Made by a program: the position numbers and the translations under genes. DNA of 64,000 nt, taken from Truepera radiovictrix DSM 17093. GTDB taxonomy: Bacteria > Deinococcota > Deinococci > Deinococcales > Trueperaceae. Where the stretch lies: the NCBI RefSeq assembly GCF_000092425.1, contig NC_014221.1, positions 2,485,001 to 2,549,000 on the forward strand, in the 5' to 3' direction. This document shows positions 2,513-31,675 of the stretch, piece after piece. How positions within the stretch are numbered: the stretch's first letter is position 1; each line of letters begins with the position of its first letter. Below the pieces are notes generated by a model. That model made no database searches and was not told the origin of the DNA. It was given only the letters and a program-made list of their open reading frames with translations.

Positions 2513-2598
2513 AGTGCAACACCTTCCAGTTTTCGGTACAATCGACTTCATCATGACAACCGTGCACGCCTCTTTATCAACCGCAAAGGGTCTCTGCC

Positions 2599-4670: not shown

Positions 4671-4690
4671 AGCTCTTTCAACACCTCTGC

Positions 4691-4711
4691 AAGCGCCCCG
4701 AGTGGGCGCTT
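4691..4711 (+). terminator. Hairpin ending the dpp operon
   Basis: AAGCGCCC (4691-4698) pairs with GGGCGCTT (4704-4711) around a 5-nt loop. Only a weak T content follows (CGACACTT). It lies between dppF and the CRISPR leader and would insulate the array from read-through. Confidence 0.55.
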
Positions 4712-4836
4712 CGACACTTCCTCTCAGCACCCGGTGCCCCCCTACGGCTTTTTGGAATGGCTGGATGTCGGTAGCCGCGAGGTTTTCAAAACGCATAGCA
4801 AAGCCGCCTGACGCACTCGGCAACGAGCCTCGAGGC

Positions 4837-4904
4837 GAGAACCATGACAACCTAGCTGACACTTCCGAGGGGGGCAGCCCGTAGATTTGCCGTGCTGGGC
4901 TAGT
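4837..4904 (+). promoter_or_regulatory. Leader of CRISPR array 1 (conserved motifs)
   Basis: Three blocks in front of the first repeat recur in the leader of array 2: GAGAACCATGACAAC (4837-4851), ACTTCCGAG (4861-4869) and CTGGGCTAGT touching the first repeat (4895-4904). In array 2 they read GAGAACCTTGACAAC, ACTTCCGAG and CTGGGTCTAGT at nearly the same distances (the ACTTCCGAG block is 35 nt from the repeat here and 34 nt there). Such motifs in type I-E leaders guide Cas1-Cas2 integration. This marks the acquisition end of array 1 and its + strand transcription. The rest of 4712-4836 shows nothing recognisable. Confidence 0.75.
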
Positions 4905-6460
4905 CTTTTCCCCACACGCGTGGGGATGAACCGATGCAGCGACTAAAGCACCGGGCCGAGGCTCTCTTTTCCCCACACGCGTGGGGATGAACCGCGTTCG
5001 GGGTATCGCTACCCCAAGTTCCCGTGCTTTTCCCCACACGCGTGGGGATGAACCGTCGCGGACGCGCGTGATTACCGTCAGCGTCTGCTTTTCCCCACAC
5101 GCGTGGGGATGAACCGGCGGCGGAGACGGTGCTGCGGACGGTTGCGCGCTTTTCCCCACACGCGTGGGGATGAACCGTTGCCGCCGCCGCGCTATCTGAG
5201 CCCGTACCCTTTTCCCCACACGCGTGGGGATGAACCGGACGAGCAGGGGCGCGTCCGCTACCTCGTCGACTTTTCCCCACACGCGTGGGGATGAACCGGG
5301 GGAGCTAGACGCGGCATGAAAAAGGGCGGCCTTTTCCCCACACGCGTGGGGATGAACCGCTCCAGGGGCTCGGGGAAGTTCAGCCAAACATCTTTTCCCC
5401 ACACGCGTGGGGATGAACCGCGCCTTGAACGAGCGGGTATCGGCTCTATCTCCTTTTCCCCACACGCGTGGGGATGAACCGGTACAGGGTGAGCACCCTC
5501 CCCTCCCCTTCCTCTTTTCCCCACACGCGTGGGGATGAACCGTAGGCACCTTCCTCGGCGTTGTAGAAGAGGGCCTTTTCCCCACACGCGTGGGGATGAA
5601 CCGGACAACGTGGGCAAGGTGTTGGCTTTTGCCCACTTTTCCCCACACGCGTGGGGATGAACCGAAGTACATCAACCGCGTCAAGGCACTCGGCCTCTTT
5701 TCCCCACACGCGTGGGGATGAACCAGTCTCTCTCGCCCCGCCCCCCCGGCATCGTCAGCTTTTCCCCACACGCGTGGGGATGAACCGTTGACGGCTTCAG
5801 GCGCGACGATGTTCAGAGCCTTTTCCCCACACGCGTGGGGATGAACCGGGTATGTCGCTGTAGCGCTTGGAGCAGGTCAGCTTTTCCCCACACGCGTGGG
5901 GATGAACCGAGATTGGTATGTGCTGACACGTGGCGACACCCCTTTTCCCCACACGCGTGGGGATGAACCGAAGCCGCGCAGCTCACCATCGATATCGCCA
6001 AGCTTTTCCCCACACGCGTGGGGATGAACCGTGGGGTGAGGTCGATCTACTCACCGGCTCGCACCCTTTTCCCCACACGCGTGGGGATGAACCGGACCGG
6101 GGCTTGTCCCTGAGAGCAAACGTGGCCTTTTCCCCACACGCGTGGGGATGAACCGGGTAGCAACAATCGCCTGCATCAGATCACGTCCTTTTCCCCACAC
6201 GCGTGGGGATGAACCGGCGCTGGGCCAGAGCGTCGACCCCAACGACGCCTTTTCCCCACACGCGTGGGGATGAACCGCGCGGGGGAGGTCTACGGCGAAA
6301 CTGAAACCTCTTTTCCCCACACGCGTGGGGATGAACCGCGCGGGGGAGGTCTACGGCGAAACTGAAACCTCTTTTCCCCACACGCGTGGGGATGAACCGG
6401 TGCTCCCCGGAGAGAGGAACACCCCAACCGGCTTTTCCCCACACGAGCGGGGACGAAATA
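4905..6460 (+). CRISPR. CRISPR array 1, type I-E, 26 repeats / 25 spacers, no adjacent cas genes
   Basis: 29-nt repeats (CTTTTCCCCACACGCG then TGGGGATGAACCG) start at 4905 and recur mostly every 61 nt, giving 32-nt spacers. Exceptions are spacers of 31 nt (spacer 5), 33 nt (spacer 14) and 34 nt (spacer 19). The final copy at 6432-6460 is degenerate (ACGAGCGGGGACGAAATA), marking the old end and confirming + strand orientation. Repeat 14 ends in A instead of G. Spacers 23 and 24 (6278-6309 and 6339-6370) are identical. Spacer 5 (5178-5208) also occurs in array 2. The repeat differs from that of array 2 at positions 3 and 14 only, so the cas genes at 22.7-31.7 kb can process it. Confidence 0.98.
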
Positions 6461-6484
6461 TCTTCAGCGAGTCTCTAACCGGGC

Positions 6485-8104: not shown

Positions 8105-8112
8105 GGGTTACC

Positions 8113-8805: not shown

Positions 8806-9773
8806 GCCTGCCGCCGTTTGCGCAGCTGGTCGGTGTAGACCACCCCGACGATGATGAGCCCTGTGATGATGGGCTGCCAGAAGGGGTTGACGCCCAGCAG
8901 GTTGGAGCCGTTGTTGATGGTGGTGAGTAGCAGCGCGCCGATAAAGGAGCCGATGATCGACCCCTCCGCGCCGAAGAGGCTGGCGCCGCCGATGACCGAC
9001 GCGGCGATGGCGTCGAGCTCGTAGTAGGTGCCCGCCGTGGGGATCCCCACGCTGATGCGCGAGGCGAGCAGGATGCCCGCGAGCGCAGCGAGCGTCGCCG
9101 AGACGGCGTAGGCGAGGTAGATCGTGCGGCCGATCTTGACGCCGCTTAAGCGCGCCGCCTCGCGGTTGCTCCCGACCGCGTAGATGTAGCGGCCGAAACG
9201 GCTCCGCTGCAGCAGCACAAAGGCCAAGACGCCCACCAAAATGACCATCCAGAAAAGGCTCGGGATCCCCAAAAACGACACCTGCGAGAAGTTGGTAAAA
9301 CCGCGCGGCAACCCCCCGATGCTCTGCCCGTTGGTGATCAAGAGCGCCACCCCGCGCAGCCCCACGAGCGACGCGAGCGTCATGATAAAGGGCGGCAAAC
9401 CCAGGTTGTAGATCCCGAAACCGTGGTAGATGCCGACTACAGCGCCCAAGAGCAGCGTCAAGACGATCGCTAAGGGCAGCGGCACCCCGGCTTGCAGCAA
9501 GAGCGCCAGAACGACCCCGCTAAGCCCCACCACCGCCCCCACCGAGAGGTCGATGCCAGCGGTGATGATGACAAAGGTTTGACCGAAGGCGACGAGCGCC
9601 CCGATGGAGGTCTGGCGCACCAGGTTGCTGATGTTCTGCTCCGTGAAAAAGGTGTCGGTCGCGAGCGCCAACACGAGCCACAAAAGCGCCAAGAGCCCGA
9701 AGAGGGTGAGCTGCAAGAGCGTCTTGGGGTCGAAGCGGCGGCCTGGAGCAGTTTGCGGCGTGGTGTCGGTCAT
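8802..9773 (-). CDS. Ribose-type sugar ABC transporter permease (RbsC-like)
   Basis: 323-aa membrane protein of the RbsC/AraH/XylH family: about 8-10 hydrophobic segments, with the conserved FVIITAGIDLSVGAVVGLSG and a later SVIGGASLFGAEGSIIGSF (both typical family blocks). It forms the channel of a CUT2 importer with the ATPase encoded just upstream. The start codon overlaps the ATPase stop by 4 nt and its own stop overlaps the aldolase start, so the genes are tightly coupled. Confidence 0.93.
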   Translation of the reverse strand: MTDTTPQTAPGRRFDPKTLLQLTLFGLLALLWLVLALATDTFFTEQNISNLVRQTSIGALVAFGQTFVIITAGIDLSVGAVVGLSGVVLALLLQAGVPLPLAIVLTLLLGAVVGIYHGFGIYNLGLPPFIMTLASLVGLRGVALLITNGQSIGGLPRGFTNFSQVSFLGIPSLFWMVILVGVLAFVLLQRSRFGRYIYAVGSNREAARLSGVKIGRTIYLAYAVSATLAALAGILLASRISVGIPTAGTYYELDAIAASVIGGASLFGAEGSIIGSFIGALLLTTINNGSNLLGVNPFWQPIITGLIIVGVVYTDQLRKRRQA

Positions 9774-11299
9774 AGAGCTTCCTCTGTGGCTGGGGCTTCG
9801 GCTTTAAGCGCCTGGGTCTGCGCCGCCCCGAGCGCCTGAGCCAGAATCGTTTCGCTGTCCGCGGCGCCGTGGGGGTGCGTGCCGACAAGACGCCCGTGGC
9901 GAAAGACGTGCAGCGTGTCGCTGAGTTCTAACACCTCCGGGAGGTACGAGGAGACCAGGATGATCCCCGCCCCCCCCTTGAGGAGGGCGGCCATGAGTTT
10001 GTAGATCTCGAGCTTGGTAGCGACGTCCACGCCGGTCGTCGGCTCGTCGAAGATGTAGAGCTCGGCGCCGTGCAAAAGCCACTTGCCGAGCACCACCTTC
10101 TGCTGGTTGCCGCCCGAGAGTTTGCCGACCTGCCGCGCCGCGCCGGGGGTGCGGATACGCAGGTCGCGGATCTGCGCCTCCGCGTTTCTGAGCTCGTCGG
10201 CGCGGCGCACCACGCCGAAGGGGCTGATGCGCTCGTAGACCGGCAGGTTGAGGTTGAAGCCCACCGAGAGCGACAAGCAGAGCCCCTGCAAGCGGCGGCT
10301 CTCGGGGATCAGCGCCACCCCCCGCTTGAGCGCGTCGGCGACGCTCTTCGGGCGGTAGGGCGCCCCCCGAAAACGCATCTCGCCCGAGGTGGGGCGCGTG
10401 CGGCCGAACACGGCCGACAGAAACTCGCTCCGCCCCGCCCCGATGAGGCCGAAAAGCCCTATGATCTCGCCGCGGCGCACCGTGAGGCTGATGTCGTGAA
10501 ATCCAACTCCCGAAAGGCGCGCCGTCCTTAACAGCACCTCCCCCTTGGGGACGGCCTCTTTGTAGTAGAGCTGCTCGAAGCTGCGGCCCGCCATGTCGCG
10601 AATCAGCGTGCTCCGGTCGGTCTCATGGATCGGCCGCGAGGAGATCACCGCCCCGTCGCGCAGCACGGTGACAAAGTCGGCGAGCTCGAAGATCTCCTCC
10701 AAACGGTGGCTGATGTAGACGATCGTCACCCCCTCCCCCTGCAGCCGCCGGATAAGGCGAAAGAGCCCCCGGACCTCGCTGTTCGAGAGGTAGGCGGTGG
10801 GTTCGTCGAAGATCAAGAGCTTTGTGCCGCGCGCGCTCGCTCGCGCGGTCGCCACGAGCTGCTGCTGGCCGATGGTCAGGTCGCCGAGGCGGCGCCGAGC
10901 GGAGAGCTGAAAGCCGAGGTCGTCTAAAAGCGCCTGCGCCCGCCGGGTCATCACGCGGTCTTGCACCAACCCCGCGCGCGTCGGTTCGTCCCCCAAAAAG
11001 ATGTTTTCGGCGACCGTGAGCGCGGGCGCCAGGGCGACCTCTTGGTGCACGGCGTTGATGCCCAGGGCTTGCGCGTCTAGGGGGCTGCGCAGCTCGAGGG
11101 GGCTGCCTTCCCAGATCAAGGTGCCGCCGTCTTTGGGGTGCGCGCCCGTGAGGATCTTGATCAAGGTCGACTTGCCCGCCCCGTTTTCGCCGACGATGGC
11201 GTGCGTTTTGCCCCGCTCAAAGACCAAACTCACGCCCTTGAGGGCGTGGGTTCCGGGGAAACGCTTGTCGATGTCTTGCAGCTCTAAAAGGGTGCTCAT
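9770..11299 (-). CDS. Ribose-type sugar ABC transporter ATPase (RbsA-like, two ABC domains)
   Basis: 509 aa with two fused ATPase modules as in RbsA/MglA. The N-terminal module has GENGAGKST and LLIFDEPTAYL; the C-terminal one has the usual degenerate Walker A GLIGAGRSE and signature LSGGNQQKVVLGKWL with YIFDEPTTGVDV. It drives uptake of a monosaccharide in CUT2 systems. The gene follows the binding protein by 61 nt and is coupled to the permease. Confidence 0.94.
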   Translation of the reverse strand: MSTLLELQDIDKRFPGTHALKGVSLVFERGKTHAIVGENGAGKSTLIKILTGAHPKDGGTLIWEGSPLELRSPLDAQALGINAVHQEVALAPALTVAENIFLGDEPTRAGLVQDRVMTRRAQALLDDLGFQLSARRRLGDLTIGQQQLVATARASARGTKLLIFDEPTAYLSNSEVRGLFRLIRRLQGEGVTIVYISHRLEEIFELADFVTVLRDGAVISSRPIHETDRSTLIRDMAGRSFEQLYYKEAVPKGEVLLRTARLSGVGFHDISLTVRRGEIIGLFGLIGAGRSEFLSAVFGRTRPTSGEMRFRGAPYRPKSVADALKRGVALIPESRRLQGLCLSLSVGFNLNLPVYERISPFGVVRRADELRNAEAQIRDLRIRTPGAARQVGKLSGGNQQKVVLGKWLLHGAELYIFDEPTTGVDVATKLEIYKLMAALLKGGAGIILVSSYLPEVLELSDTLHVFRHGRLVGTHPHGAADSETILAQALGAAQTQALKAEAPATEEAL

Positions 11300-11360
11300 A
11301 GGTTTTGCTGGGGGTCACGGCGCGCCGCAGCCACGCCGTGACCCCCAAAGCGCAGCCCCG

Positions 11361-12314
11361 TTACTCCCGCGTCTCCGGGTAGAGCAGCGCCTGCACCTCT
11401 GGGGTGTCAAAGTTCTCGAGGGTCACGATGGTCACCCCCGTGTCGATCTCGCGCTCGACCTCCTCGCCGCGGGCGGCGGCGACGGCGGTCTTGACCCCCT
11501 CGTAACCCATGCGGTAGGGGTTTTGCACCACCAGCGCTTTGATCTGACCGCCCTGTAAAAAGGCGATCTCCTGCTCGTCGGCGTCGAAGGCGACGACGGC
11601 GACCTGCTCCTCGAGCCCGCGCTCGGCGATCGCCCGCCCCGCCCCGACGCCCATCGGCAGGTTGTCGGCGAAGATGCCCACGAGGTTCGGGTGCGCCACG
11701 AGGAGGTCGAGGGTGTTCGAGAGCGCCTGGTTGGCGTCGTTGTTGTTAAAGCGGTTGGCGACCTCGCGCAACCCGGGGTAGTTCGTCAGACCGTCGCGGA
11801 AGCCGTTGTCGCGCGCGGTCAACGAACCCACGCCGGGGAGCGCCGTGAGGATGGCGATCTCCCCTTCGGGCGCGCCGTGCAGCGCCTCGACGGCCTCGGC
11901 CAAGGCTTCGGCGGCGAGCTGACCGGCAGCGAAGTTGTCAGTGGTCAGAAACGAGGTGTAGGCGTCCGTGTCGGCGGCCGAGTCGATCTTGATGATCGGC
12001 ACGCGCTCGGCGGCCCGCTCGATGGGGGCGCCCAGGGGTTCGAAGGCGGTCGGCGCGATGACGATCGCGTCCGGCCCTTGGGTCACGGCGTTCTCCAAAA
12101 TGGCGATCTGCCCCGCGATATCGGACTCCTCGGCGGCGCCCAAGGTCGTGAGGTTGACGCCCAGCTCCTCGGCGGCGGCCTCGGCGCCCGCGAAGACCGT
12201 CTGCCAGAAAGGCGAGGTCGTCGCCTTGACGATCACGGCGATGTCGAGCGGTTCTTGCGCCAGAGCGCCCCCAGCTAGGAGCAAAACGCACACTGCTTGG
12301 ATGATCCTCTTCAC
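11361..12314 (-). CDS. Sugar-binding protein of ribose-type ABC importer (RbsB-like)
   Basis: 317 aa with a signal peptide (MKRIIQAVCVLLLAGGALA then QEP). The mature part begins IAVIVKATTSPFWQTVFAG, the family start of ribose/galactose-type binding proteins, followed by AVTQGPDAIVIAPTAF and a hinge. It is the first gene of the five-gene operon and captures the sugar outside the membrane. A clear promoter lies about 225 nt upstream, leaving a long 5' UTR with a tandem 15-bp repeat. Ligand not deducible. Confidence 0.9.
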   Translation of the reverse strand: MKRIIQAVCVLLLAGGALAQEPLDIAVIVKATTSPFWQTVFAGAEAAAEELGVNLTTLGAAEESDIAGQIAILENAVTQGPDAIVIAPTAFEPLGAPIERAAERVPIIKIDSAADTDAYTSFLTTDNFAAGQLAAEALAEAVEALHGAPEGEIAILTALPGVGSLTARDNGFRDGLTNYPGLREVANRFNNNDANQALSNTLDLLVAHPNLVGIFADNLPMGVGAGRAIAERGLEEQVAVVAFDADEQEIAFLQGGQIKALVVQNPYRMGYEGVKTAVAAARGEEVEREIDTGVTIVTLENFDTPEVQALLYPETRE

Positions 12315-12372
12315 CGGTCTCCCCTTTCGCGGCCGTACCCGTTCGCGCGGCCTCTAAGCGCACGGCAACGCC

Positions 12373-12402
12373 GTCACGCACCAACCAGTCACGCACCAAC
12401 CA
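12373..12402. repeat. Tandem 15-bp direct repeat in the sugar-operon leader
   Basis: GTCACGCACCAACCA occurs twice without a gap (12373-12387 and 12388-12402). It lies in the 5' UTR between the promoter at 12539-12567 and the binding-protein gene. Direct repeats in this position may bind a sugar-responsive regulator or arise from replication slippage. No regulator gene is adjacent. Confidence 0.6.
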
Positions 12403-12538
12403 CGCCTCACTTCCCACGCCCCACTTCGCAACGGACGACATCAAGGCTCAGGCACGGTCTTCCACCCCTCACGCCTACCGTCTACACCCACGCGTACCGC
12501 TTCGGCAGCGGGCCCTTGCACGGAGTTTGTGTAGGGGC

Positions 12539-12567
12539 ATCATAGAGCGATGGCAACATCTCGTCAA
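12539..12567 (-). promoter_or_regulatory. Promoter of the ribose-type sugar operon
   Basis: Read on the - strand: -35 TTGACG (12567-12562), 17-nt spacer, -10 TATGAT (12544-12539). Both boxes are one mismatch from consensus. Transcription would begin near 12531 and run through 12315-12530, which holds no other gene, into the binding-protein gene. Confidence 0.75.
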
Positions 12568-12617
12568 GTCATCTCTGCGCGAAACGGTGCGTTTTTGTCG
12601 CTCCGTGTTAGGCGTGG

Positions 12618-13919
12618 TCAGCCGGGCGGGTCTTTGGGCGACACCTCATCGGGGGAGCGCTCGAGCGCCCCCGCCGGCACCGGCACCTCCCCCTCGAGCA
12701 GCGGGTCGTCGGTGTCGCGCATCCAGCGCTCGAGGCGCTCGCGCAGCGCCTCGAGCACCCCGGGCGGCGCGCTGCTCGCGAGGTTGTGCGTCTCGCAGGG
12801 GTCGTAGAGGCGGTCGAAGAGCTCCTCGGAGGGCACCGCGCGCTCGCGCCAGCCGCGCGCCAGCAGGAGGCTCTTGGTGCGCGAATCGTCGCAGTTGACG
12901 AGCACCGGTCGCGCGCGCCCCCCGAAGCGCCGGATATAGGTGTAGCGCTCCGTGCGGACGCAGCGCTGCGGCTCGTAGGCGACGTGGTGGGTGGACTCGG
13001 TGAAGAGGGCGTCGCGCAGCGAGGCGACCTCGCCCCGCACCAAAGGCAGCAGCGAACGGCCCTGCAACCACGGGGGCGGCGGCAAGCGCAACAGCTCGCA
13101 CAGCGTCGGGAAGACGTCGAGGTGCGAGACGAGGCCGTCGACGACCCGCCCGCCCGTGAACCCGCCGGGCCCGCGCATCAGGAGCATCACCCCGGTGCCG
13201 TGCAGCGTCAGCTGCCCTTTCATACCGGGAAAGGGGGGGCCGTGGTCGGTCGTGCAGAGGACCAGGGTGTTTTCGGCCAGAGCGCCGCGCTCTAGCGCCG
13301 CCAAAAGCGCGCCGATCCCCTCATCGAGCGCCCGCACCGAGCGCGCGAAGTCGGCGAGGTCTTGGCGCACCGGCGGCGCGTCGGGGAGCGGTGCGGGGGG
13401 GCGGACGTAGCGCGGGTCGCCAGTACCGTGTCCAAAACCCCCTTCCGGCATGAAGTGGGTCTCGACAAAGCCGACCGAGAGGAAAAAGGGGCGCTTGGGC
13501 GGGTGCCGCAAATACCTCAGGGCGGCGGGCAGGATGTCCTCGGCAAGCAGGCCGCGGCTCGGCAGCTGGCGGTGGTAGCCGATCCGCCGCGCCCCGCCCG
13601 GGTCGGGGGCGAGGTGCTGCACCCCCGCTAGCGCCGAGGTGTAGCCCGCGGCGTGCAGGGTGTGGATGAGGTGCGTGCGGTAGTCGCGCAGCCGCCAACC
13701 GCGGTGGGCGAGCCCCATCATGCCGGCGTTGTGCGGCGTCATACCGGTCAGGAGCCCCGCGCGCGACGGCGAGCAGGTCGGCGCGGCGGCGTGCGCGTCG
13801 CGAAACATCACCCCCTGTTCGGCGAGGCGCTGCAGGTTGGGGGTCGCGATGGGCGCGCCGTAAGGCTGCACGTACCGGCCGGTATCGTGCGAGTGGAGGT
13901 AGAGGATGTTGGGCAGCAC
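12618..13919 (-). CDS. Sulfatase (type I, formylglycine-dependent)
   Basis: 433 aa. The C-x-P-S-R sulfatase motif is CSPSR (Cys49), the residue converted to formylglycine by a maturase, followed by AGLLTGMTPHN. The N-terminal metal site is LHSHDTG, a variant used by N-sulfoglucosamine-sulfohydrolase-like sulfatases. Later metal/substrate blocks are TTDHGPPFPGMKGQL. No signal peptide is visible, so it is probably cytoplasmic. It follows a CUT1-type binding protein by 53 nt on the same strand, which suggests that the importer brings in a sulfated sugar or glycan fragment. Confidence 0.88.
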   Translation of the reverse strand: MLPNILYLHSHDTGRYVQPYGAPIATPNLQRLAEQGVMFRDAHAAAPTCSPSRAGLLTGMTPHNAGMMGLAHRGWRLRDYRTHLIHTLHAAGYTSALAGVQHLAPDPGGARRIGYHRQLPSRGLLAEDILPAALRYLRHPPKRPFFLSVGFVETHFMPEGGFGHGTGDPRYVRPPAPLPDAPPVRQDLADFARSVRALDEGIGALLAALERGALAENTLVLCTTDHGPPFPGMKGQLTLHGTGVMLLMRGPGGFTGGRVVDGLVSHLDVFPTLCELLRLPPPPWLQGRSLLPLVRGEVASLRDALFTESTHHVAYEPQRCVRTERYTYIRRFGGRARPVLVNCDDSRTKSLLLARGWRERAVPSEELFDRLYDPCETHNLASSAPPGVLEALRERLERWMRDTDDPLLEGEVPVPAGALERSPDEVSPKDPPG

Positions 13920-13972
13920 CGGCGCCTCCTCGTTCGGTCGGGTCTCAGCGTACCGCGCTCGGCTCGAGCGGG

Positions 13973-15589
13973 CTACTCGGCCGCTCCGGCCGCGAGGTAG
14001 CGCTCATACGCCGCCGTGTAGAGCGCCAAGACCCGCTCCAAGCCGATGCGCCTAAGCGTCTCTAGGTACGCCTCCCACGTGTCTAAGGGCCTTTGGCCGG
14101 TGATAAAGCCCGCCTCGGCGCTCTGGGTAAAGCGCTCGAGCTCGAGTAGCAGCGCCGAGAGCTCGCGCTGCTCGTCGGGGGTGAAGTATAGCGGGGGGAG
14201 CGTGGGCGCCGCGTAGGGCTCTAGAAGCGCCGTCTGCTCCGCGATGTAGAAGTTCAGCGGGTTCGTCTGCGCGAGGTCGATCTGCGCGAGCGCAAAGACC
14301 GGCTCGCGGTTGTGCGGCAGCTGCGACCCCGCGTCCGGGGTGAGCGTCGCGGCGCGGTAGAGCTCCGGGTTCTCCCCCTCGGGGTAGAGGCGCGCGATCC
14401 CCCCCGACGGGGTGTAGACCCAATCCTCGCCGTAGACGCCGTGCACGAGCAGCAGCGCCCCCTCGAGATCGTAAAATCGGTCGACCCAGCGCATCGTCGC
14501 CGCCGGGTCGGGGTTCGTGTGCGAGATCGCGAAGGTGCCGCGCACATACGCCGAGGTGCGCGGCCACATGGGGGTGGCGTTCACGGCAGAGGTGAGCGGG
14601 AGGAGCTGGCGGAAGGTCTCGTTGCGCTCCGGCCCGACGACCAGAAAGGGGCCCGCGGCGGTAAAGGCGCCGAGGCGGTCGGCGGCGCCCTTGGCGGCGA
14701 GCGCGGTGAGGTCCTGCGTAAAGGCGTCCGGGTCGAGGAGACCGTCACGGTAGAGGCGGTGCACAAAAGCCAGGTACTCGTAAAACGCGGGCTCGGCGGG
14801 GACGAAGCGCACGCGGCCGTCGGCGACGTCAAATAGCGCCCTGCCGTAGCCGACCGAAAACCCGAACGCCGCCAAGAGCCCCGGGCGCAGGTCATCGAGC
14901 GGCCACCCCTCGAGGCTCGTCGAGCTGATGGGGATCTCGTCGGCCTCGCCGTTGCCGTTGGGGTCGCCCGTCTGGAAAGCGCGGAGCACCTCGTAGAGCT
15001 CGTCGGTGGTGCGCGGCATGGCGAGCCCGAGCGCGTCTAACCACGCCGCGTTGATCCAGAGCTTCGGGTACACCCCGAACCCGGCCGTCACAGCCGGTAG
15101 GGCGTAGATGTGCCCGTCCGGCGTGGTGATGGCGCGGCGCAGGTCGGGGCGCTCTGCGAGCAGCTGCGCGAGGTTGGGCGCGTGCTCCGCGATCAGCGCC
15201 TCCAGCGGGAGCAGAAGCCCCTGCGAACCGTAGGTCACCTCGTCGGCGGGGCTCAGGCGACCGCCGAAAAAGACGTCGGGCAGACTGCCGCTCGCGAAGG
15301 CGAGGTTTTTGCGCTCCTCGTAGGCGTCGTCGATGGGGGTGTCGAAGACGAGCCGGATGCCCGTCTGCGCCTCGAGCACCCGGAAGAGCTTGAGCTCCTC
15401 CCACGGGCTCTGCAGCGGTGACCTCGAGCCCATCACCGATAGGGTCAAAGGCTCCGCTACCACCCACGTCGCCCTAGGCGCCGCGGCCACCCCCACCGCC
15501 AACGCGCTCCACGCCGCCACAGCCCCAGCGAGACACCGCCACGCGCCCCCACCTGCACGCCGACACGGACCCCGACACCAGGCGTTCAT
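13973..15589 (-). CDS. Extracellular solute-binding protein, family 1 (LplA-like)
   Basis: 538 aa, typical for the large binding proteins of oligosaccharide CUT1 systems. Residues 1-37 look like a signal peptide ending AVGVAAAP, without a lipobox. The mature region starts LTLSVMGSRSPLQSPWEEL, with LPDVFFGG and INAAWLDALGLAMPRTTDEL as recognisable family blocks. The ATG is preceded at 6 nt by TAAGAT (15601-15596), so an internal leaderless promoter is possible in addition to read-through from the permeases. No ATPase gene is nearby; CUT1 systems often share one encoded elsewhere. Confidence 0.88.
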   Translation of the reverse strand: MNAWCRGPCRRAGGGAWRCLAGAVAAWSALAVGVAAAPRATWVVAEPLTLSVMGSRSPLQSPWEELKLFRVLEAQTGIRLVFDTPIDDAYEERKNLAFASGSLPDVFFGGRLSPADEVTYGSQGLLLPLEALIAEHAPNLAQLLAERPDLRRAITTPDGHIYALPAVTAGFGVYPKLWINAAWLDALGLAMPRTTDELYEVLRAFQTGDPNGNGEADEIPISSTSLEGWPLDDLRPGLLAAFGFSVGYGRALFDVADGRVRFVPAEPAFYEYLAFVHRLYRDGLLDPDAFTQDLTALAAKGAADRLGAFTAAGPFLVVGPERNETFRQLLPLTSAVNATPMWPRTSAYVRGTFAISHTNPDPAATMRWVDRFYDLEGALLLVHGVYGEDWVYTPSGGIARLYPEGENPELYRAATLTPDAGSQLPHNREPVFALAQIDLAQTNPLNFYIAEQTALLEPYAAPTLPPLYFTPDEQRELSALLLELERFTQSAEAGFITGQRPLDTWEAYLETLRRIGLERVLALYTAAYERYLAAGAAE

Positions 15590-19069: not shown

Positions 19070-22000
19070 CGGTTCATCCCCACGTGTGTGGGGAATAGGA
19101 CTGGCTCAATCTTGACAAAAGGGGATGAACCGGTTCATCCCCACGTGTGTGGGGAATAGCTCGACGAATCGCTGGAGCACGCCTGGATTGCCGGTTCATC
19201 CCCACGTGTGTGGGGAATAGTCCGAAGGCGGCATTTCGCAACTGGGGCTCTTTCGGTTCATCCCCACGTGTGTGGGGAATAGCTAGCACATGCGCTGCAC
19301 GGCCTATCAGTGTCCGGTTCATCCCCACGTGTGTGGGGAATAGAATTCGCTCCCTTTGACGAGGTCGTCAAGGTCCGGTTCATCCCCACGTGTGTGGGGA
19401 ATAGGCGGATCAACTCCAGCGGGCGAACCAGGCGCTCTGGTTCATCCCCACGTGTGTGGGGAATAGGAGCATGGCCTCGTAGTGACGGCCGAGCTTGCGG
19501 TTCATCCCCACGTGTGTGGGGAATAGGCCGTGCAGAGCGCTAGTCACCATAAAGCCATCGGTTCATCCCCACGTGTGTGGGGAATAGTGAGAGGCTAGGA
19601 TGTGTATGGCGGCCAGCTCCGGTTCATCCCCACGTGTGTGGGGAATAGGAGTTTACCAACGCCTATCTGGTCGGCACCCACGGTTCATCCCCACGTGTGT
19701 GGGGAATAGGAGCCAGGTGATCATGGCGTGCTCACCCGCCTCGGTTCATCCCCACGTGTGTGGGGAATAGTTTGACGCCTGTGACCTGTGGAGCGCTTCG
19801 TTCGGTTCATCCCCACGTGTGTGGGGAATAGATGCCCCTACTGACTCGCTCGGAAGGTTAAGGCGGTTCATCCCCACGTGTGTGGGGAATAGAGCCAGAC
19901 CGGTGCGCTTATCCATCCGCCCAACGGTTCATCCCCACGTGTGTGGGGAATAGGCATACCTTATGCACCACACCGACCCGCGCCGCTGGTTCATCCCCAC
20001 GTGTGTGGGGAATAGGATGACGCGCTGCACGCCGGTGAGCACGCCGGTCGGTTCATCCCCACGTGTGTGGGGAATAGTGCTTTAGCCCTGTTGAAAATCA
20101 CGCTGTTTGCGGTTCATCCCCACGTGTGTGGGGAATAGTAGCCCCCGATACCGAGCAAGTTGCTGACGCCCGGTTCATCCCCACGTGTGTGGGGAATAGG
20201 TCGTCTAGGAAGAGCTGCACAACCTCACCACCGGTTCATCCCCACGTGTGTGGGGAATAGGGCGAGCCGCTCCAACGCCTCCACCCCCTGGACGGTTCAT
20301 CCCCACGTGTGTGGGGAATAGGTTAACCTTGTCTATCCTGGTGTCGCTCCTCGCGGTTCATCCCCACGTGTGTGGGGAATAGGTGTGGCAGTGACCACAC
20401 CCTAGGCGAGCGCATCGGTTCATCCCCACGTGTGTGGGGAATAGTTGGCTCCAGGTCTCGAGCTGGCCCTGGAGCGCGGTTCATCCCCACGTGTGTGGGG
20501 AATAGGCAACGTAAACCGGAACGGTTCCCCGAACTCCGCGGTTCATCCCCACGTGTGTGGGGAATAGGGTTAGGTACGTCCGGGTTGGAAGCCCGATTTT
20601 CGGTTCATCCCCACGTGTGTGGGGAATAGGAGGTCAACCGGACGCCTGTGGGTGGCGTCGTAGGTTCATCCCCACGTGTGTGGGGAATAGCGCGGGTGGT
20701 GCATCTGCATGTCCTCATGGACCGGTTCATCCCCACGTGTGTGGGGAATAGCACAACCCACTTGGCCTTATCGCCTTGACCCTGCGGTTCATCCCCACGT
20801 GTGTGGGGAATAGCTTAGCCCACCCGCGCGGCGGGAAGGCTAAGTACGGTTCATCCCCACGTGTGTGGGGAATAGCACAACCCACTTGGCCTTATCGCCT
20901 TGACCCTGCGGTTCATCCCCACGTGTGTGGGGAATAGCTTAGCCCACCCGCGCGGCGGGAAGGCTAAGTACGGTTCATCCCCACGTGTGTGGGGAATAGT
21001 CGCGCGGGTCCACGTAGGGGAGCGCCTGAGCCGGTTCATCCCCACGTGTGTGGGGAATAGGGCCTGCTCGTCGCTCACCGCCCGGGCCGCCTCGGTTCAT
21101 CCCCACGTGTGTGGGGAATAGCCGTGGCGTGACGCGCTCATCGACCGGCGAATCGGTTCATCCCCACGTGTGTGGGGAATAGCGCTGAACGCCTGCCCGA
21201 AGGGAGGAAACGACCGGTTCATCCCCACGTGTGTGGGGAATAGCGCGCCCCACCACTCCTTTTCAGGCCGGAAAGCGGTTCATCCCCACGTGTGTGGGGA
21301 ATAGCGGTACGGGCTCAGATAGCGCGGCGGCGGCAACGGTTCATCCCCACGTGTGTGGGGAATAGGCAGATTGAGCACGTGAGAGCGCACGCTGGGCGCG
21401 GTTCATCCCCACGTGTGTGGGGAATAGACCCGAGCAATCATGGCCGAGCTGCCCGACTCCGGTTCATCCCCACGTGTGTGGGGAATAGGGCGGGCGGGAA
21501 CACCAGCAGCGCCGCCGCGCCGGTTCATCCCCACGTGTGTGGGGAATAGCCCGTTCCCAGCCGTCATCAGGTGGTGGAACGCGGTTCATCCCCACGTGTG
21601 TGGGGAATAGACCGTCAACGACCTCGACGGCGAGGTGGTCAACGGTTCATCCCCACGTGTGTGGGGAATAGCGCGTTCTGATCGGGTCTCTAGCCTACTA
21701 CTACGGTTCATCCCCACGTGTGTGGGGAATAGGTTGTAGTGGGCGCCGAATTTGTCTTTCAAGAGGGTTCATCCCCACGTGTGTGGGGAATAGGCCCGCC
21801 GGTGGGTAGGGGCTCTTGAGCCCCTACGGTTCATCCCCACGTGTGTGGGGAATAGGGCAAAAAACTGCTCCGGAGGTTCTCATGTCCCGGTTCATCCCCA
21901 CGTGTGTGGGGAATAGCCCGTCCTGTTGGGGGTCGCTGTGCGTGGTCGCGGTTCATCCCCACGTGTGTGGGGAATAGACCGTTCACATCCCTCCCGTACC

Positions 22001-22589
22001 GGGTACCGACGGTTCATCCCCACGTGTGTGGGGAATAGTTCATCGACTTTACAAGAACACCGCTGCACGACGGTTCATCCCCACGTGTGTGGGGAATAGG
22101 AGGATGGATGATGATGAAAGCTGTCGCCACGCGGTTCATCCCCACGTGTGTGGGGAATAGGCTTGCGGCTCATCCTGTGACAGCTCTTGCAGCGGTTCAT
22201 CCCCACGTGTGTGGGGAATAGCAGTGCTGGCCCAACCCGCGAGCACTGGAGCTCGGTTCATCCCCACGTGTGTGGGGAATAGGGGATGCGCATGCCGTCG
22301 CCGTTGACAAGCGCCGGTTCATCCCCACGTGTGTGGGGAATAGGATGCTCGACCTCCTCGGGGGGGCGTGCGACGGCGGTTCATCCCCACGTGTGTGGGG
22401 AATAGTCCATCTCGGAAGTTGAAAGGAGACGAGCGGGCGGTTCATCCCCACGTGTGTGGGGAATAGGTCGTAATCCCTGGCCGGTTTTATCCGACAAGCG
22501 GTTCATCCCCACGTGTGTGGGGAATAGGCCCGAGACCTCTGAGTCGGTGCCGGTGAGCATCGGTTCATCCCCACGTGTGTGGGGAATAG
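19070..22589 (-). CRISPR. CRISPR array 2, type I-E, 58 repeats / 57 spacers, linked to cas operon
   Basis: 29-nt repeats, on the + strand CGGTTCATCCCCACGT then GTGTGGGGAATAG, start at 19070 and end at 22589; spacers are 31-33 nt. Transcription is on the - strand, continuing the cas operon direction, so the newest spacers are near 22560. Spacers at 20752-20784 and 20814-20846 are repeated at 20876-20908 and 20938-20970 (124-bp tandem duplication). Spacer 21305-21336 is the same guide as array 1 spacer 5. The repeats at 19438, 19987, 20662 and 21765 have a changed terminal base. The spacer at 19099-19130 begins, in guide orientation, with an inverted copy of the repeat end. Confidence 0.98.
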
Positions 22590-22661
22590 ACTAGACCCAG
22601 ACGCTAAAAACGCGCGAAAAGGGCTCGGAAGTATCCAAGAGGTCTCGTTGTCAAGGTTCTC
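22590..22661 (-). promoter_or_regulatory. Leader of CRISPR array 2
   Basis: Read on the - strand toward the array: GAGAACCTTGACAAC (22661-22647), ACTTCCGAG (22632-22624), CTGGGTCTAGT (22600-22590) abutting the first repeat. The same blocks lead array 1. The leader sits between the cas2 stop (22700) and the array. Motif spacing agrees with array 1 to within 1-4 nt, which fits binding sites for an integration host-like factor or Cas1-Cas2 anchoring (inference). Confidence 0.75.
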
Positions 22662-22699
22662 GGCATGTGGCGCACCACGCTGCCACAGTAGCACAGCGA

Positions 22700-23011
22700 T
22701 CAGCTTGCTGGCTCGACAAACATCTGCTCCCACTTGGCGTTCTTGACGGTGACGAGCATAAGCCCGTCAAAGTCACGAATGCTTCGGTTGCTGTCGCCGT
22801 GCATGCGGATGGCGTAGCCCTGCTCGTTGTTGGTGCGGTAAAGCTGACAGCAACGGCCGGCGCGGCTCTTCTCAACGCACTTGTCCCACAGCAAGTCGCG
22901 CACCATCGCGCTCATCGAGCCGACGAAGACGCCGGTTGAGACCTCGAGCATCCAGCGCGTCAGCTCACCCCTCAGGCTCTTGGGCACCTTCTCCAGCACC
23001 ATCACCACCAT
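22700..23011 (-). CDS. cas2: CRISPR-associated endoribonuclease/integration subunit Cas2e
   Basis: 103 aa from the ATG at 23011, which has a fine ribosome site (GGAGGTGTCATCT before ATG). A longer reading to 23134 would only overlap cas1. The start VVMVLEKVPKSLRGELTRW and the block TGVFVGSMSAMVRDLLWDKC match the Cas2e family (E. coli Cas2 is 94 aa). It forms the Cas1-Cas2 integrase complex that inserts new spacers. It overlaps cas1 by 47 nt and is the last cas gene before the leader and array 2. Confidence 0.93.
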   Translation of the reverse strand: MVVMVLEKVPKSLRGELTRWMLEVSTGVFVGSMSAMVRDLLWDKCVEKSRAGRCCQLYRTNNEQGYAIRMHGDSNRSIRDFDGLMLVTVKNAKWEQMFVEPAS

Positions 23012-23927
23012 AGATGACACCTCCGGCGACATTTCCCGCGGGGTCCCACAGCTCGCCGGGTTTTGAAGGGTCGTCGGCGTAGGGGTCGGGAAGTTCGAGG
23101 TCATCAAAGAGCGCATGTAAGTCGGCAACGACACGCTCCAAGAGCTTTACCTCGCGCAGCTGATCACGCAGGGTGTGGCGCACCCGCCGCTCGACCCCTT
23201 CGGATGACTCGGCGACCACCTTAAACGCTGTGGGGATGAGCGTTTCAGCCTTGTAGAGGTCGGCGATGTCGTAGACGAATGAGAGCTGTTTGCCGGTGTG
23301 GATAAAGCCCAAAGCTGGGCTATAGCCGGCGCTGACGATGGCGGCGTGGCAGAGTCCGTAAAGGCAGGCGGCTCCGGCGCTGATGGCACGGTTGATGGGG
23401 TCGGCTTGCGTCCAGTTGCCGCGGCTATAGTTGCGCCCATACCAGGGAACGCCGGTCTCGCGGCTCCAGTAGGCGTAGGTATCGCGTACCCGCACCCCCT
23501 CGTAGCCGCGGATCTGCTGCAGGGTGAGGCCTTCGGGCAAGGGCTCGGGGAAGCGCAGGGCGTAAAGCCGCTTGACGACCCTTAGCCTGGTGTCGTGGTC
23601 GCTGTAGGCGGCCACCTGCCGCAACAGGTGTTGGGTGCTGCGCGTCTCACCCAGGCCGCAGGCGTAAAAGCGCACCATCTCCTCGCCCACCCAAAAGACG
23701 CTGCAGCCGTTATTGGCAAGCGCGCGAATCGCCGCGTGGGTGACGCTGGTGCCGGGCCCGAGCATCAGCACCCCCAAAGCGGCAGCGGGTACGGCGGTCA
23801 TGCCGTCTGGGCCGTAGTGGGCGATCGCTTGATCCTCTTGCTCGATACGGCCGTGCTCGAGGTAGAGGTAGCTCAGCCCATCGCGGAACTTGGGCAGCTC
23901 TTTGAGGTTTTGGGTGGTGTAGGGCAC
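22965..23927 (-). CDS. cas1: CRISPR-associated integrase Cas1e
   Basis: 320 aa. Metal-binding active-site residues can be assigned by family pattern: Glu143 in RGYEGVRVR, His210 in LGFIHTG, Asp220 and Asp223 in FVYDIADLYK. It catalyses spacer integration at the leader-repeat junction. GTG start with AGGGGGT 5 nt upstream, 3 nt after the cas6e stop. All catalytic residues are present, so adaptation is probably functional. Confidence 0.96.
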   Translation of the reverse strand: MPYTTQNLKELPKFRDGLSYLYLEHGRIEQEDQAIAHYGPDGMTAVPAAALGVLMLGPGTSVTHAAIRALANNGCSVFWVGEEMVRFYACGLGETRSTQHLLRQVAAYSDHDTRLRVVKRLYALRFPEPLPEGLTLQQIRGYEGVRVRDTYAYWSRETGVPWYGRNYSRGNWTQADPINRAISAGAACLYGLCHAAIVSAGYSPALGFIHTGKQLSFVYDIADLYKAETLIPTAFKVVAESSEGVERRVRHTLRDQLREVKLLERVVADLHALFDDLELPDPYADDPSKPGELWDPAGNVAGGVIYGGDGAGEGAQEPEG

Positions 23928-23930
23928 CGT

Positions 23931-24563
23931 TTACCCCCTAGCGACCGAAAGCAGCCCGCAGCCGAGCGCTTTGGCGTGGCCGAGGCCGCACTCGAGGGTA
24001 GTTAAAAAAGCGTCGACATCGGTGACGCGCAGGTGACCGTCGTAGGTGACGCTCTGCAGGGTGATGCGGTGCCCCGCTCGTCCGTCCTTTGGGGGTTTGT
24101 GCGCGCTGACGCGCTCGCTGCTCGTGACCATAGCGCCAAGCACCGCAAAGCCGCCGCGCTCGCCCTGCCGGTAGAGCCAAGCGAGCTGCGCTTCCAGGGT
24201 GACGAGCCCTAAGCGCTTCCGTTTGCCCTTTTGGGGGTCGAGCTTGGTGACCGTCGGGTTGGCGCGCAGGCGAAAGCGCAGCAGCTGGCCAGCCTTAAAG
24301 GTGGGCTCAAACGGTTTGGGACTTTGGGCGTCGAGCGTCGCGTAATCGGGGTGGCGGCTAAAGAGCGCTGGCCAGTCGGGGGGGGTGAGGCTTTGCACGA
24401 GCAGGACCGCTTCGCGCCGGCTCTGCTCGAGCCGCCACAGCGGGCGCCCGCCCTCGCGACCGGCAAAGGCCCACGACAGCGTAGCGTGCATCTCGTAAGG
24501 GTTGGCAAGGTCGCGCCGGGCTTGTTTGGCGCGGGGGTTAAGCTGGAGCTTGCTCAGGTACAT
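23931..24563 (-). CDS. cas6e: Cas6e (CasE) crRNA-processing endonuclease
   Basis: 210 aa from ATG 24563 (GAGGTGCCCT upstream); a longer frame to 24620 overlaps cas5 further and lacks support. The family N-terminus YLSKLQLNPRAKQARRDLAN, then NPYEMHATLSWAF with candidate catalytic His26 and Tyr23, and the glycine-rich C-terminal loop GLGHAKALGCGLLSVARG are present. It cleaves the repeat stem-loop (CCCCAC/GTGGGG) and stays on the 3' handle. Overlaps cas5e by 26 nt. Confidence 0.94.
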   Translation of the reverse strand: MYLSKLQLNPRAKQARRDLANPYEMHATLSWAFAGREGGRPLWRLEQSRREAVLLVQSLTPPDWPALFSRHPDYATLDAQSPKPFEPTFKAGQLLRFRLRANPTVTKLDPQKGKRKRLGLVTLEAQLAWLYRQGERGGFAVLGAMVTSSERVSAHKPPKDGRAGHRITLQSVTYDGHLRVTDVDAFLTTLECGLGHAKALGCGLLSVARG

Positions 24564-25230
24564 AGGGCACCTCGATAGAGTCTGCAACAACGTAGCGGGC
24601 GCCAAAGCGGCGCTCAGCAAAGGCCCCTAAGGGTTGATCCATCCGTAAGGAGCCGCTACCGTCGTCGCTCTCGAGCCACACGGGCAGGCGTTGCGATGCC
24701 AGCGGGTTGCCGTCTTGGTCGCTTGACCATCGCTGTCCTATAAAGGGATACCCGAGGGCGTCGCGCAACGGTTCGTCGCGCAGCCCATCTTTGAGGTAAA
24801 CCCCTGGGCTAGGCAGATAGCCCTTGCGCCCCAAGTACAGCGGCCAGGTTGGATGGCGAAGGGCCCGGTGGGCCCTCGCCAACAATGGTTGGTCATCCCC
24901 TTCAAGGCCAACCAAAAAGGCGGCGTCTGAGAGGTAGTAACGCCTGGAAATGGTCGTTGGGTGCACCTTGGATTCGTCAGCGGCGATCACGTTTTGGGCT
25001 GTTTGGTAGTCGTAGCGCAACACCCCCGGCTGGTCGACGCGCACCCCCATGCGCAGTGCAGCAAGCTCTAACACGGGCTCGAGCGCCTCGCGGTAAATCC
25101 CCATCGCAGCACAGAGCAGCCCAATGACCCCGCTTTTCGAAGGGATAAGGTCGCTGTCGCGTTCGTCGAAGCGGCTTTTAGTGCCCCAGGACTGCATGGG
25201 GCCAGCGAGCCGTAAGAGCAAGGTCGGCAC
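24538..25230 (-). CDS. cas5e: Cascade subunit Cas5e (CasD)
   Basis: 230 aa from a GTG at 25230, one base after the cas7e stop. This start gives PTLLLRLAGPMQSWGTKSRF, the classic Cas5 N-terminus; the longer frame is rejected. SKSGVIGLLCAAMGI is the conserved helix after it. Cas5e caps the 5' handle (AUGAACCG) of the crRNA and anchors Cse1. Length fits E. coli CasD (224 aa). Confidence 0.94.
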   Translation of the reverse strand: MPTLLLRLAGPMQSWGTKSRFDERDSDLIPSKSGVIGLLCAAMGIYREALEPVLELAALRMGVRVDQPGVLRYDYQTAQNVIAADESKVHPTTISRRYYLSDAAFLVGLEGDDQPLLARAHRALRHPTWPLYLGRKGYLPSPGVYLKDGLRDEPLRDALGYPFIGQRWSSDQDGNPLASQRLPVWLESDDGSGSLRMDQPLGAFAERRFGARYVVADSIEVPYVPEQAPA

Positions 25231-25231
25231 G

Positions 25232-26406
<1,175 letters not shown>

Positions 26407-26410
<4 letters not shown>

Positions 26411-26997
26411 GATTCCTCTCCTTCGTAGGTGGCGTTGGCGACGGTGCGGTAAAAGGCCCGCGCCCACGTCTGTTGCACGGGTTTGCCTTCACGGTTCCAA
26501 GCGAGCAGGTCGCGCAGCAGCGCGCCCCAGTGGATGCGGATGGCTTCATCCCCCTTGAGCAGCTGCACCATCTGGCGCAAGCGGTAAGGGAGCTGCTCTC
26601 GGTCGGCGTCAAGCAGCGCGACGAAGCGCTGCTCGATGCTTGGGCTCTGACTGCGCGCCAGGTAGAGCTGCGCGATGGCGTGACCGAGGGCGCGGCGGTA
26701 GCCCTCAGTGGGTTGCGGATCGGCGCCACCCTCTAGCCCCTCGTCGTCCACCGCGTCGCGAAATTGCTCCAGCTCGGACGACGACACCGTCCCCGCCCAC
26801 AGCCCTGCGACCAGGTAGAGCATCTGCCGCTCCCAGGCGTTGTCGTAGTCCTTTTGCAAGCGCGCGACGAAGACTTCGACCAGCGGTACGACCTGCGCTC
26901 CCGGCTCAGCGACGCCGCGCCTGAGCCGGGCGAGATCGGCGCTCTCGGCGTTGCGCCGCAGGTGCCGCATAAACTCGCGCTCAACGACCTGTTGCAC
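26407..26997 (-). CDS. cse2: Cascade small subunit Cse2 (CasB)
   Basis: 196-aa helical protein (E. coli CasB 160 aa). FMRHLRRNAESADLARLRRG matches the Cse2 N-terminus, with basic patches that line the displaced DNA strand. GTG start at 26997 with AAGGAGGTCACCG upstream. It overlaps cse1 by 17 nt. A dimer of Cse2 stabilises the R-loop in Cascade. Confidence 0.92.
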
Positions 26998-28519
26998 CGG
27001 TGACCTCCTTCTGCTGGTAGATGTGGCTAAACAAGATGCCTTCGCTCTTGTAGATCGCCCGCAGCGCTCGAGCGTCGTCGCCGGCGGCGAGGCGCGTCAG
27101 CTGCCAGGCGCGCCGGGCCGCCTGCTCGAGCGCTTCTTGCCAGCGCTGCGTGAGCTGCGCCTCGTCAAAGTCAGCTTTAAGCCCCTCGAGCCACTCACCA
27201 AAGCGCTGCTCGAGCACTGACCAGTACGCGGTATGATGCGGGAAGCTCTGAGCGAGTCTGCCAATATCGTCCCTGTGCGGTTGCCGGTCGCCTAGGGTCA
27301 GCAGCTCTTTGGCCAACGCTCTAGCGGCGCTGCTTAGCCGCTGTCCCATCGCCTCGGCCTTTTCAAGGTTGCTCTCGACAAACCGCCACACCTCGCGGTC
27401 GCTCAAGACGGCTTCCGGCAGCTGGTAGACCTCCCCTCGCCACAGCTCGATCTTGGCTTGGTCGTTGGCAAAACCGGCGACAAAGACCGGCAACTTGCGT
27501 TCACCAAAGGTGCCGCTGAGCGCGCTGCAAAGGTTGCGCGCATGGTCGGCGACCCCTAGGCTATGCCCACCAGGGCGCGGCAGGAGTGAAGCGTAGTCAC
27601 GCCACAGCGCGCGCCCCTCGCGAAAACCGAGTGGGTAGACTTTGGTTGGGTCTTTGGGGTCGCGTCGGAAAGCGACCATCGGGTCGGGGCGCACCGCCGC
27701 CTCTTCATAGCGGATGCCGGAGGCGTAGGCGATCCAGCGCACCACCGTTTGGCCGCCTTCGCTTTCGGGGTGCAGGCGCACCGAGCGCGCCAGCCAGGTG
27801 TAGCGGTGCACGATCCCTTTGGCGCTGCCCCGCGCGGCCTCACAGTCGGCCATATCGGTGACTTTAAGGGGCGGTTGCTCCCAGGTCGCGGCGTCCTGTG
27901 CGTGTTCGCGCTCGGAGTAAGGCACGAGGTTCAGGCACAGGGTTTGGTGCAGGTTGTCCCCTAGCACCAGCGCCAGCGCCGCGGTGGCCACCGGCGCGGT
28001 AGCAGTGTGGCAGAGCACGCTTTTGCCCGCTGAGATGGCAAAGGTTTGATTGCTGACGAGCAGTCTAGCAGCCTCAGCAGGTAAGAGCGGCCTTGGGCGC
28101 GAGGTGATGGTGTGGTCGAAGAGCACCTTGTTATTGTCCGAGTTGAGCTCCGGCGCAAGCACCGTCCACGAGCGGCTCGAGCGCTCAGGACCAAAGTCGG
28201 CCACCTGATAGAAGGGCGCTTCAGGGTGAAAGAGGTCGAAGCGGTGTCGATAACGCTCGAGGTAGGCGCGCACCCTGTTCGCATCGAAGCCTTCCTCAAA
28301 CCACTCCGCTGCTTGCTCGGCGTCCTCTGGCCCAGCGAGCGCCCGGTGCAAGACGGCGAGCAGCAAACGGTGTAATGAAACGGTGACGAGCGGGCTGGGG
28401 TCTTCGATGCGGTTATAGCGATGAGCTTCAAGCAGGGCCGCTTCGAGGCTCACGAGCTTGTGTGCTGCGCCCTCGCGTACAGGGATCCAGGGTTCGGTGA
28501 TGAGGTTGAATGTGGGCAA
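26981..28519 (-). CDS. cse1: Cascade large subunit Cse1 (CasA, Cas8e)
   Basis: 512 aa from a TTG start at 28519. The TTG is chosen because AAGGAGGT lies 5 nt upstream and because it yields the family N-terminus PTFNLITEPWIPV; the longer frame to 28594 has no ribosome site. The protein reads the PAM, loads target DNA and recruits Cas3. Length equals E. coli CasA (502 aa). The distal helical bundle is at the C-terminus. It lies 52 nt after the 59-aa gene and is driven by the promoter at 28824-28852. Confidence 0.95.
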   Translation of the reverse strand: MPTFNLITEPWIPVREGAAHKLVSLEAALLEAHRYNRIEDPSPLVTVSLHRLLLAVLHRALAGPEDAEQAAEWFEEGFDANRVRAYLERYRHRFDLFHPEAPFYQVADFGPERSSRSWTVLAPELNSDNNKVLFDHTITSRPRPLLPAEAARLLVSNQTFAISAGKSVLCHTATAPVATAALALVLGDNLHQTLCLNLVPYSEREHAQDAATWEQPPLKVTDMADCEAARGSAKGIVHRYTWLARSVRLHPESEGGQTVVRWIAYASGIRYEEAAVRPDPMVAFRRDPKDPTKVYPLGFREGRALWRDYASLLPRPGGHSLGVADHARNLCSALSGTFGERKLPVFVAGFANDQAKIELWRGEVYQLPEAVLSDREVWRFVESNLEKAEAMGQRLSSAARALAKELLTLGDRQPHRDDIGRLAQSFPHHTAYWSVLEQRFGEWLEGLKADFDEAQLTQRWQEALEQAARRAWQLTRLAAGDDARALRAIYKSEGILFSHIYQQKEVTGATGR

Positions 28520-28571
28520 GTCGCACCTCCTTAGATGGCAAGCGCTGGTCGGTAACGGCGGCGCTGCCCGC

Positions 28572-28751
28572 TTAAGAGGTGTCGTCCCAGGCATCGGCGT
28601 CGTAAGCGCCGTGCTGCTCGAGCAGCCGGTACTCTGCTAGGCGCAAACGCAGCTCGGCAAGGAGCTGAGCAAGGTTGCGCACGCGCGCCGCTCGAGCGGC
28701 GTCGGCCACTAACTGCACGAGGTCCTCGTCGGCTAAACTGCCATAGAGCAC
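28572..28751 (-). CDS. Unknown 59-aa helical protein, first gene under the Cascade promoter
   Basis: Starts at GTG 28751 with a very strong ribosome site (AAAGGAGGTGA, 5 nt gap). The protein begins VLYGSLADEDLVQLVADA (initiator V read as M), is rich in Ala, Leu and Arg, looks like two amphipathic helices with a heptad-like LAQLLAELRLRLAEYRLLEQ, and ends in an acidic tail. No family is recognised and standard I-E operons lack such a gene. It is about 65 nt downstream of the predicted transcription start and precedes cse1. It may be a Cascade accessory or regulator, or the toxin of a CreTA-like pair, since its promoter is the one targeted by the adjacent guide RNA. Confidence 0.6.
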   Translation of the reverse strand: MLYGSLADEDLVQLVADAARAARVRNLAQLLAELRLRLAEYRLLEQHGAYDADAWDDTS

Positions 28752-28823
28752 GGAGTTCACCTCCTTTCTCACCGGAGACCCCCTCTCAGCTTGGCGGCGG
28801 GCGGGGTTTTTCGGGTTAGGCAG

Positions 28824-28852
28824 ATTGTAGAAGATATGGTGGGCCTTGTCAA
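28824..28852 (-). promoter_or_regulatory. Promoter of the 59-aa gene / cse1-cas2 operon
   Basis: - strand: -35 TTGACA (28852-28847, full consensus), 17-nt spacer, -10 TACAAT (28829-28824, one mismatch). It is the best sigma-70 promoter in the window. Start of transcription is expected near 28816. The -35 lies inside the 32-nt site recognised by the neighbouring guide RNA, so Cascade binding would block RNA polymerase. Confidence 0.88.
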
Positions 28853-28880
28853 TCCCTAAAACCCTGTGAGCAACCAACTT
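28846..28880 (-). promoter_or_regulatory. Cascade target site (PAM plus protospacer) covering the operon -35 box
   Basis: On the - strand AAG (28880-28878) is followed by the protospacer 28877-28846. Against the pseudo-spacer at 28949-28918, positions 1-5, 7, 8, 10, 11 and 13-17 are identical (pattern TTGGTnGCnCAnAGGGT), then identity drops (19 of 32 overall). Mismatches at 6, 12 and 18 fall on the bases that Cascade flips out. AAG is the preferred type I-E interference PAM in E. coli. The poor PAM-distal pairing is as expected for binding without Cas3 cleavage. Confidence 0.8.
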
Positions 28881-28888
28881 AAAAATCT

Positions 28889-28917
28889 CTGCAAAACCCC
28901 ACGGATGTGGGGAGAGT
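28889..28917 (-). repeat. Degenerate CRISPR repeat 2 of the mini-CRISPR
   Basis: 19 of 29 positions equal the array 1 repeat (- strand reading ACTCTCCCCACA then TCCGTGGGGTTTTGCAG). The stem is intact (CCCCAC/GTGGGG) while the 3' handle ATGAACCG is lost, so it can be cut by Cas6e but cannot start another crRNA. No indels relative to the repeat. Confidence 0.8.
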
Positions 28918-28949
28918 TTGGCTTGCAGCGCGACCCTATGCGCTACCAA

Positions 28950-28978
28950 CGGTTCATCCACGCGCGTGCGAGGAACGG
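28950..28978 (-). repeat. Degenerate CRISPR repeat 1 of the mini-CRISPR
   Basis: 23 of 29 positions equal the array 1 repeat without gaps (mismatches at 2, 3, 8, 10, 17, 19). The last ten bases GGATGAACCG are unchanged, and CACGCGCGTG can still form a short stem. It begins 7 bases before the cas3 stop codon is reached from the other side (cas3 ends at 28985). Confidence 0.88.
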
Positions 28979-28984
28979 CGCCTA

Positions 28985-31675
<2,691 letters not shown>

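Follow-up and report, generated by a model that had tools for sequence, protein, structure and literature searches.

The two CRISPR arrays in the window (the whole stretch of 64,000 nucleotides analysed here, from a radiation-tolerant bacterium) have one spacer in common. Most likely, a single type I-E Cas1e–Cas2e made two captures of one protospacer from a foreign element, with one insertion in each array. We favour this double capture because the two copies share no neighbours, lie among array-specific repeats without hybrids, and have the same PAM-side edge together with a different far edge. We infer that the source was foreign and that AAG is its candidate PAM.

Two arrays and the spacer they share

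4905..6460, + strand: array 1, 26 repeats (the last one degenerate, i.e., the old end) and 25 spacers; repeat CTTTTCCCCACACGCGTGGGGATGAACCG
19070..22589, − strand: array 2, 58 repeats and 57 spacers; repeat CTATTCCCCACACACGTGGGGATGAACCG
5178-5208, + strand: array 1 copy of the shared spacer, 31 nt, fifth counted from the leader
21305-21336, − strand: array 2 copy of the shared spacer, 32 nt, twenty-first counted from the leader

Both arrays fit the type I-E format, with 29-bp repeats and spacers of about 32 bp at a period of 61; spacer lengths range from 31 to 34 nt in array 1 and from 31 to 33 nt in array 2. The degenerate repeat on the right of array 1 places its leader on the left; that of array 2 lies to the right of its array and adjoins cas2 of the type I-E operon. 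The two repeats are identical at 27 of 29 positions and differ at positions 3 and 14, which are diagnostic of their array: T3/G14 is found in all 25 intact repeats of array 1, and A3/A14 in 58 of 58 in array 2. Beyond these two positions, the intact repeats vary solely at the last base (G in 78 of 83), as expected if that base is PAM-derived. The five repeats with a base other than G there (5725, 21765, 20662, 19987 and 19438) possibly record protospacers with another PAM-side base, as captured. We also observed that spacer 57 of array 2, its oldest (19099-19130), contains GTTCATCCCC, which corresponds to part of the repeat in reverse complement; when all spacers were shuffled 200 times, a repeat match of this length arose somewhere in 27 rounds, and the resemblance is possibly due to chance.

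An earlier note on this DNA had described the same spacer in both arrays, in the same orientation relative to the repeats, and this is borne out by exact parsing: all 31 bases of array 1 spacer 5 agree with bases 1-31 of array 2 spacer 21, the orientation is the same, and the ordinals (fifth and about twenty-first from the leader) hold. Each copy directly follows an identical repeat end, GATGAACCG, such that the 5' (PAM-side) edge is the same in both and the 3' (far) edge is displaced by one base. The shortness of the array 1 copy by one base, also claimed earlier, is real in the sequence, where the array 1 period at this spacer is 60 against the usual 61 (21 of 24 periods); a miscalled junction base could give rise to this difference of 31 versus 32 nt. 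With up to two mismatches allowed, a 17-nt core of the spacer occurs at two sites only in the window and in none of 100 shuffles; chance is therefore no explanation. When the 82 spacers (25 + 57) were all compared pairwise, no other inter-array match exceeded 11 nt. A reading of the shared spacer as self-targeting was rejected, a 26-nt core having no third site in the single 3,260,398-bp chromosome with up to three mismatches.

Two captures or one copied spacer

In the mechanism that we propose, Cas1e–Cas2e would have captured one protospacer of a foreign element on two occasions, and each captured fragment would have been inserted once, at the leader of its own array. Both fragments would share the cut at the PAM-side edge, and slightly different Cas1–Cas2 measuring or trimming would have left one of them a base shorter at the far edge. 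The surroundings of the two copies bear upon this proposal: spacers 4 and 6 of array 1 match neither spacer 20 nor spacer 22 of array 2. A single shared spacer, without shared neighbours and at non-ancestral positions, fits independent double acquisition, as do copy ends that differ at the far edge only (31 versus 32 nt). Two captures require just one protospacer and the ordinary variation in fragment length that both arrays show. The earlier note had offered two readings, namely that the protospacer was taken twice or that recombination or gene conversion moved the spacer; neighbours, flanking repeats and edges support the former, and the latter is disfavoured.

Copying between the arrays, by gene conversion or recombination through the repeats, is nonetheless the alternative that survives best, unlikely though we consider it. 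The arrays are about 13 kb apart, their repeats are alike at all but two positions, and recombination within arrays did happen, as the following tandem duplicates attest:

6278..6370, + strand: array 1 spacers 23 and 24, adjacent identical 32-mers
20752..20970, − strand: array 2 spacers 27-30, a two-spacer block (27-28) tandemly repeated as 29-30

Spacers 23 and 24 of array 1 are an internal example of copying via repeat recombination or slippage, and the block in array 2 is a sign of inter-repeat recombination. (Spacer 27 of array 2, at 20938-20970, and its copy, spacer 29, are near self-complementary and hairpin-like; against its own reverse complement, spacer 27 has 7 mismatches at a shift of 2.) These undoubted copies are tandem and unchanged in length; the shared spacer shows neither mark. 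Furthermore, none of the 83 intact repeats is a hybrid mixing T3/G14 with A3/A14. A conversion tract would have to begin among the final 15 bases of the upstream repeat and stop at base 1 or 2 of the downstream repeat. Conversion would additionally need to change the spacer length by one base, no neighbouring spacer was co-copied, and a crossover between these arrays, which are inverted relative to each other, would invert the intervening segment.

We attach even less probability to a source within the arrays themselves, in which Cas1e–Cas2e took a fragment of array 2 (or a spacer excised from it) as the prespacer for array 1, or the reverse. If this were true, one array would have immunised the other, and no second infection would have been needed. 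The array does hold exactly this sequence, of which the chromosome has no other copy, but within the array CCG precedes the spacer in place of AAG, and chance alone would have to bring the cut exactly onto the repeat border. It is equally improbable that the arrays are old duplicates and the shared spacer a remnant of their common ancestor: similar repeats and leaders would suit such a history, but the repeats have uniformly diverged while the spacer has 0 mismatches in 31, and ancestral spacers are expected to be leader-distal (PMC12814883), as positions 5 of 25 and 21 of 57 are not.

Returning to double capture, we estimated how many shared pairs would arise if K elements of 40 kb contributed spacers evenly, with AAG at 1 in 64 bases per strand and 25 x 57 pairs to compare. 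The expectation in this model is 1.14 with one such element and falls to 0.38 with three and to 0.11 with ten; given values of 0.11-0.38 for three to ten elements, one match needs no special mechanism. As to timing, in a model of growth proportional to the present array lengths the fifth position in array 1 corresponds to about 11 newer spacers in array 2, and at least 20 has P = 0.10. Positions 5 and 21 are thus slightly off what a single episode would give under such growth, and the two captures may be separate events; they may have fallen in one infection or in two.

Leaders, cas genes and a common machinery

4805..4904, + strand: array 1 leader, with elements CGAGAACC, TGACAA, ACTTCCGAG and CTAGT in common with the array 2 leader
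22590..22689, − strand: array 2 leader, adjoining cas2
22700..23134, − strand: cas2e (longest ORF, the start may be further in; Pfam PF09707 and PADLOC Cas2e)
22965..23927, − strand: cas1e (PADLOC Cas1e, E 1e-116)
23931..31675, − strand: cas6e, cas5e, cas7e, cse2 (cas11e), cse1 (cas8e) and cas3, the remaining type I-E operon

The type I-E gene set is complete in the window (cas3, cse1, cse2, cas7e, cas5e, cas6e, cas1e and cas2e), and its operon, the sole one of this kind there, lies beside array 2. The gene at 31701-32681, upstream of cas3, encodes a WYL-domain regulator of a type that accompanies CRISPR systems. Near array 1, no cas gene was found among the 10 ORFs scanned (positions 321-15589): nine belong to transporter or sugar-metabolism families, one of these, a fucose isomerase-like ORF, falling under the curated cut-off, and the tenth has no family.

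The leaders of arrays 1 and 2 carry common elements at like distances: GAGAACC at -68 and -72, TGACAA at -60 and -64, ACTTCCGAG at -44 and -43, and CTAGT at -5 in both, where it adjoins the first repeat. No shuffle out of 1000 reached their local alignment score, which 5 of 5000 stretches from elsewhere in the window attained. Since these motifs are shared at like distances, one Cas1e–Cas2e likely serves both arrays. Two further cas1 genes on the chromosome neighbour arrays with different repeats, which makes the Cas1e–Cas2e of the window the likely inserter; the 24 and 18 spacers beside those two genes have no stretch of at least 12 nt in common with arrays 1 or 2. E. coli with two arrays is described in PMC11788318 as dividing acquisition between both.

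Protospacer search and relation to known cases

Searches of phages, plasmids, IMG/VR and 111 genomes of the phylum, and an exact 19-mer scan of genome contigs, yielded no protospacer for the shared spacer. Short-query matches in phages and plasmids were dismissed as GC-rich and at chance level (best E 0.6-0.8). Three exact 19-mer matches in genome contigs were rejected too: of the 32 bases they cover only 21-23, and about 2 such matches are expected by chance. IMG/VR returned 0 matches for an exact 18-mer and three degenerate codon patterns of the shared spacer, and likewise 0 for 20-mers of four neighbouring spacers. With the entire arrays as queries, 1 and 6 phage records were returned, none with E below 0.03; the most promising, array 2 spacer 16 against Streptomyces phage phiCAM (26/32, ungapped, no AAG at the 5' edge), was rejected. 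Against plasmids, the matches listed have 64-66% identity spread over the arrays and were rejected in turn; we read them as repeats matching other CRISPR arrays. A missing protospacer is a common outcome, since few Thermus spacers find a match: among 1567 unique spacers, 3.3% matched phages and 5.1% prophages (PMC6452258). The same paper reports an AAG PAM for the I-E system of Thermus.

When array 1 DNA was compared with 39 genomes of the family (its own included), array-like repeats occurred mainly in one other (G097), and the remaining genomes gave short, weak matches. The strongest of these, in G102 (L022), was rejected as a lone repeat-like stretch. The shared spacer is absent from the one other genome of the genus that was compared.

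Independent re-capture has already been published, and the shared spacer adds a neat case to a known, fairly ordinary kind of event. In Thermus, which belongs to the same phylum, seven pairs of spacers reflect independent capture of the same locus (PMC6452258), a situation akin to ours. The proof there consists of a different CRISPR type or of partial overlap, across 26 genomes, whereas here both arrays have I-E-type repeats, a single genome is involved, and the two copies coincide except for one base. For genomes in which several arrays have the same consensus repeat, the survey in PMC12814883 states that 11.9% of such arrays show at least some spacer overlap, in counts that include duplicated arrays; the repeats here are similar, not identical. 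For type I-E adaptation in E. coli, PMC6787059 gives precursor strands of 32-34 nt and notes that spacers with potential slippage were filtered out; slippage at the prespacer end is experimental in that account, but deduced here from one natural pair. None of the titles listed by the literature searches concerns this spacer pair.

As a natural example, the pair is a clean one that comes with built-in controls, namely the tandem copies in the same arrays and the diagnostic bases of the repeats. It suggests that one I-E machinery serves two arrays and is able to capture the same target twice, and it brings a caution for strain typing: identical spacers do not necessarily mean shared descent.
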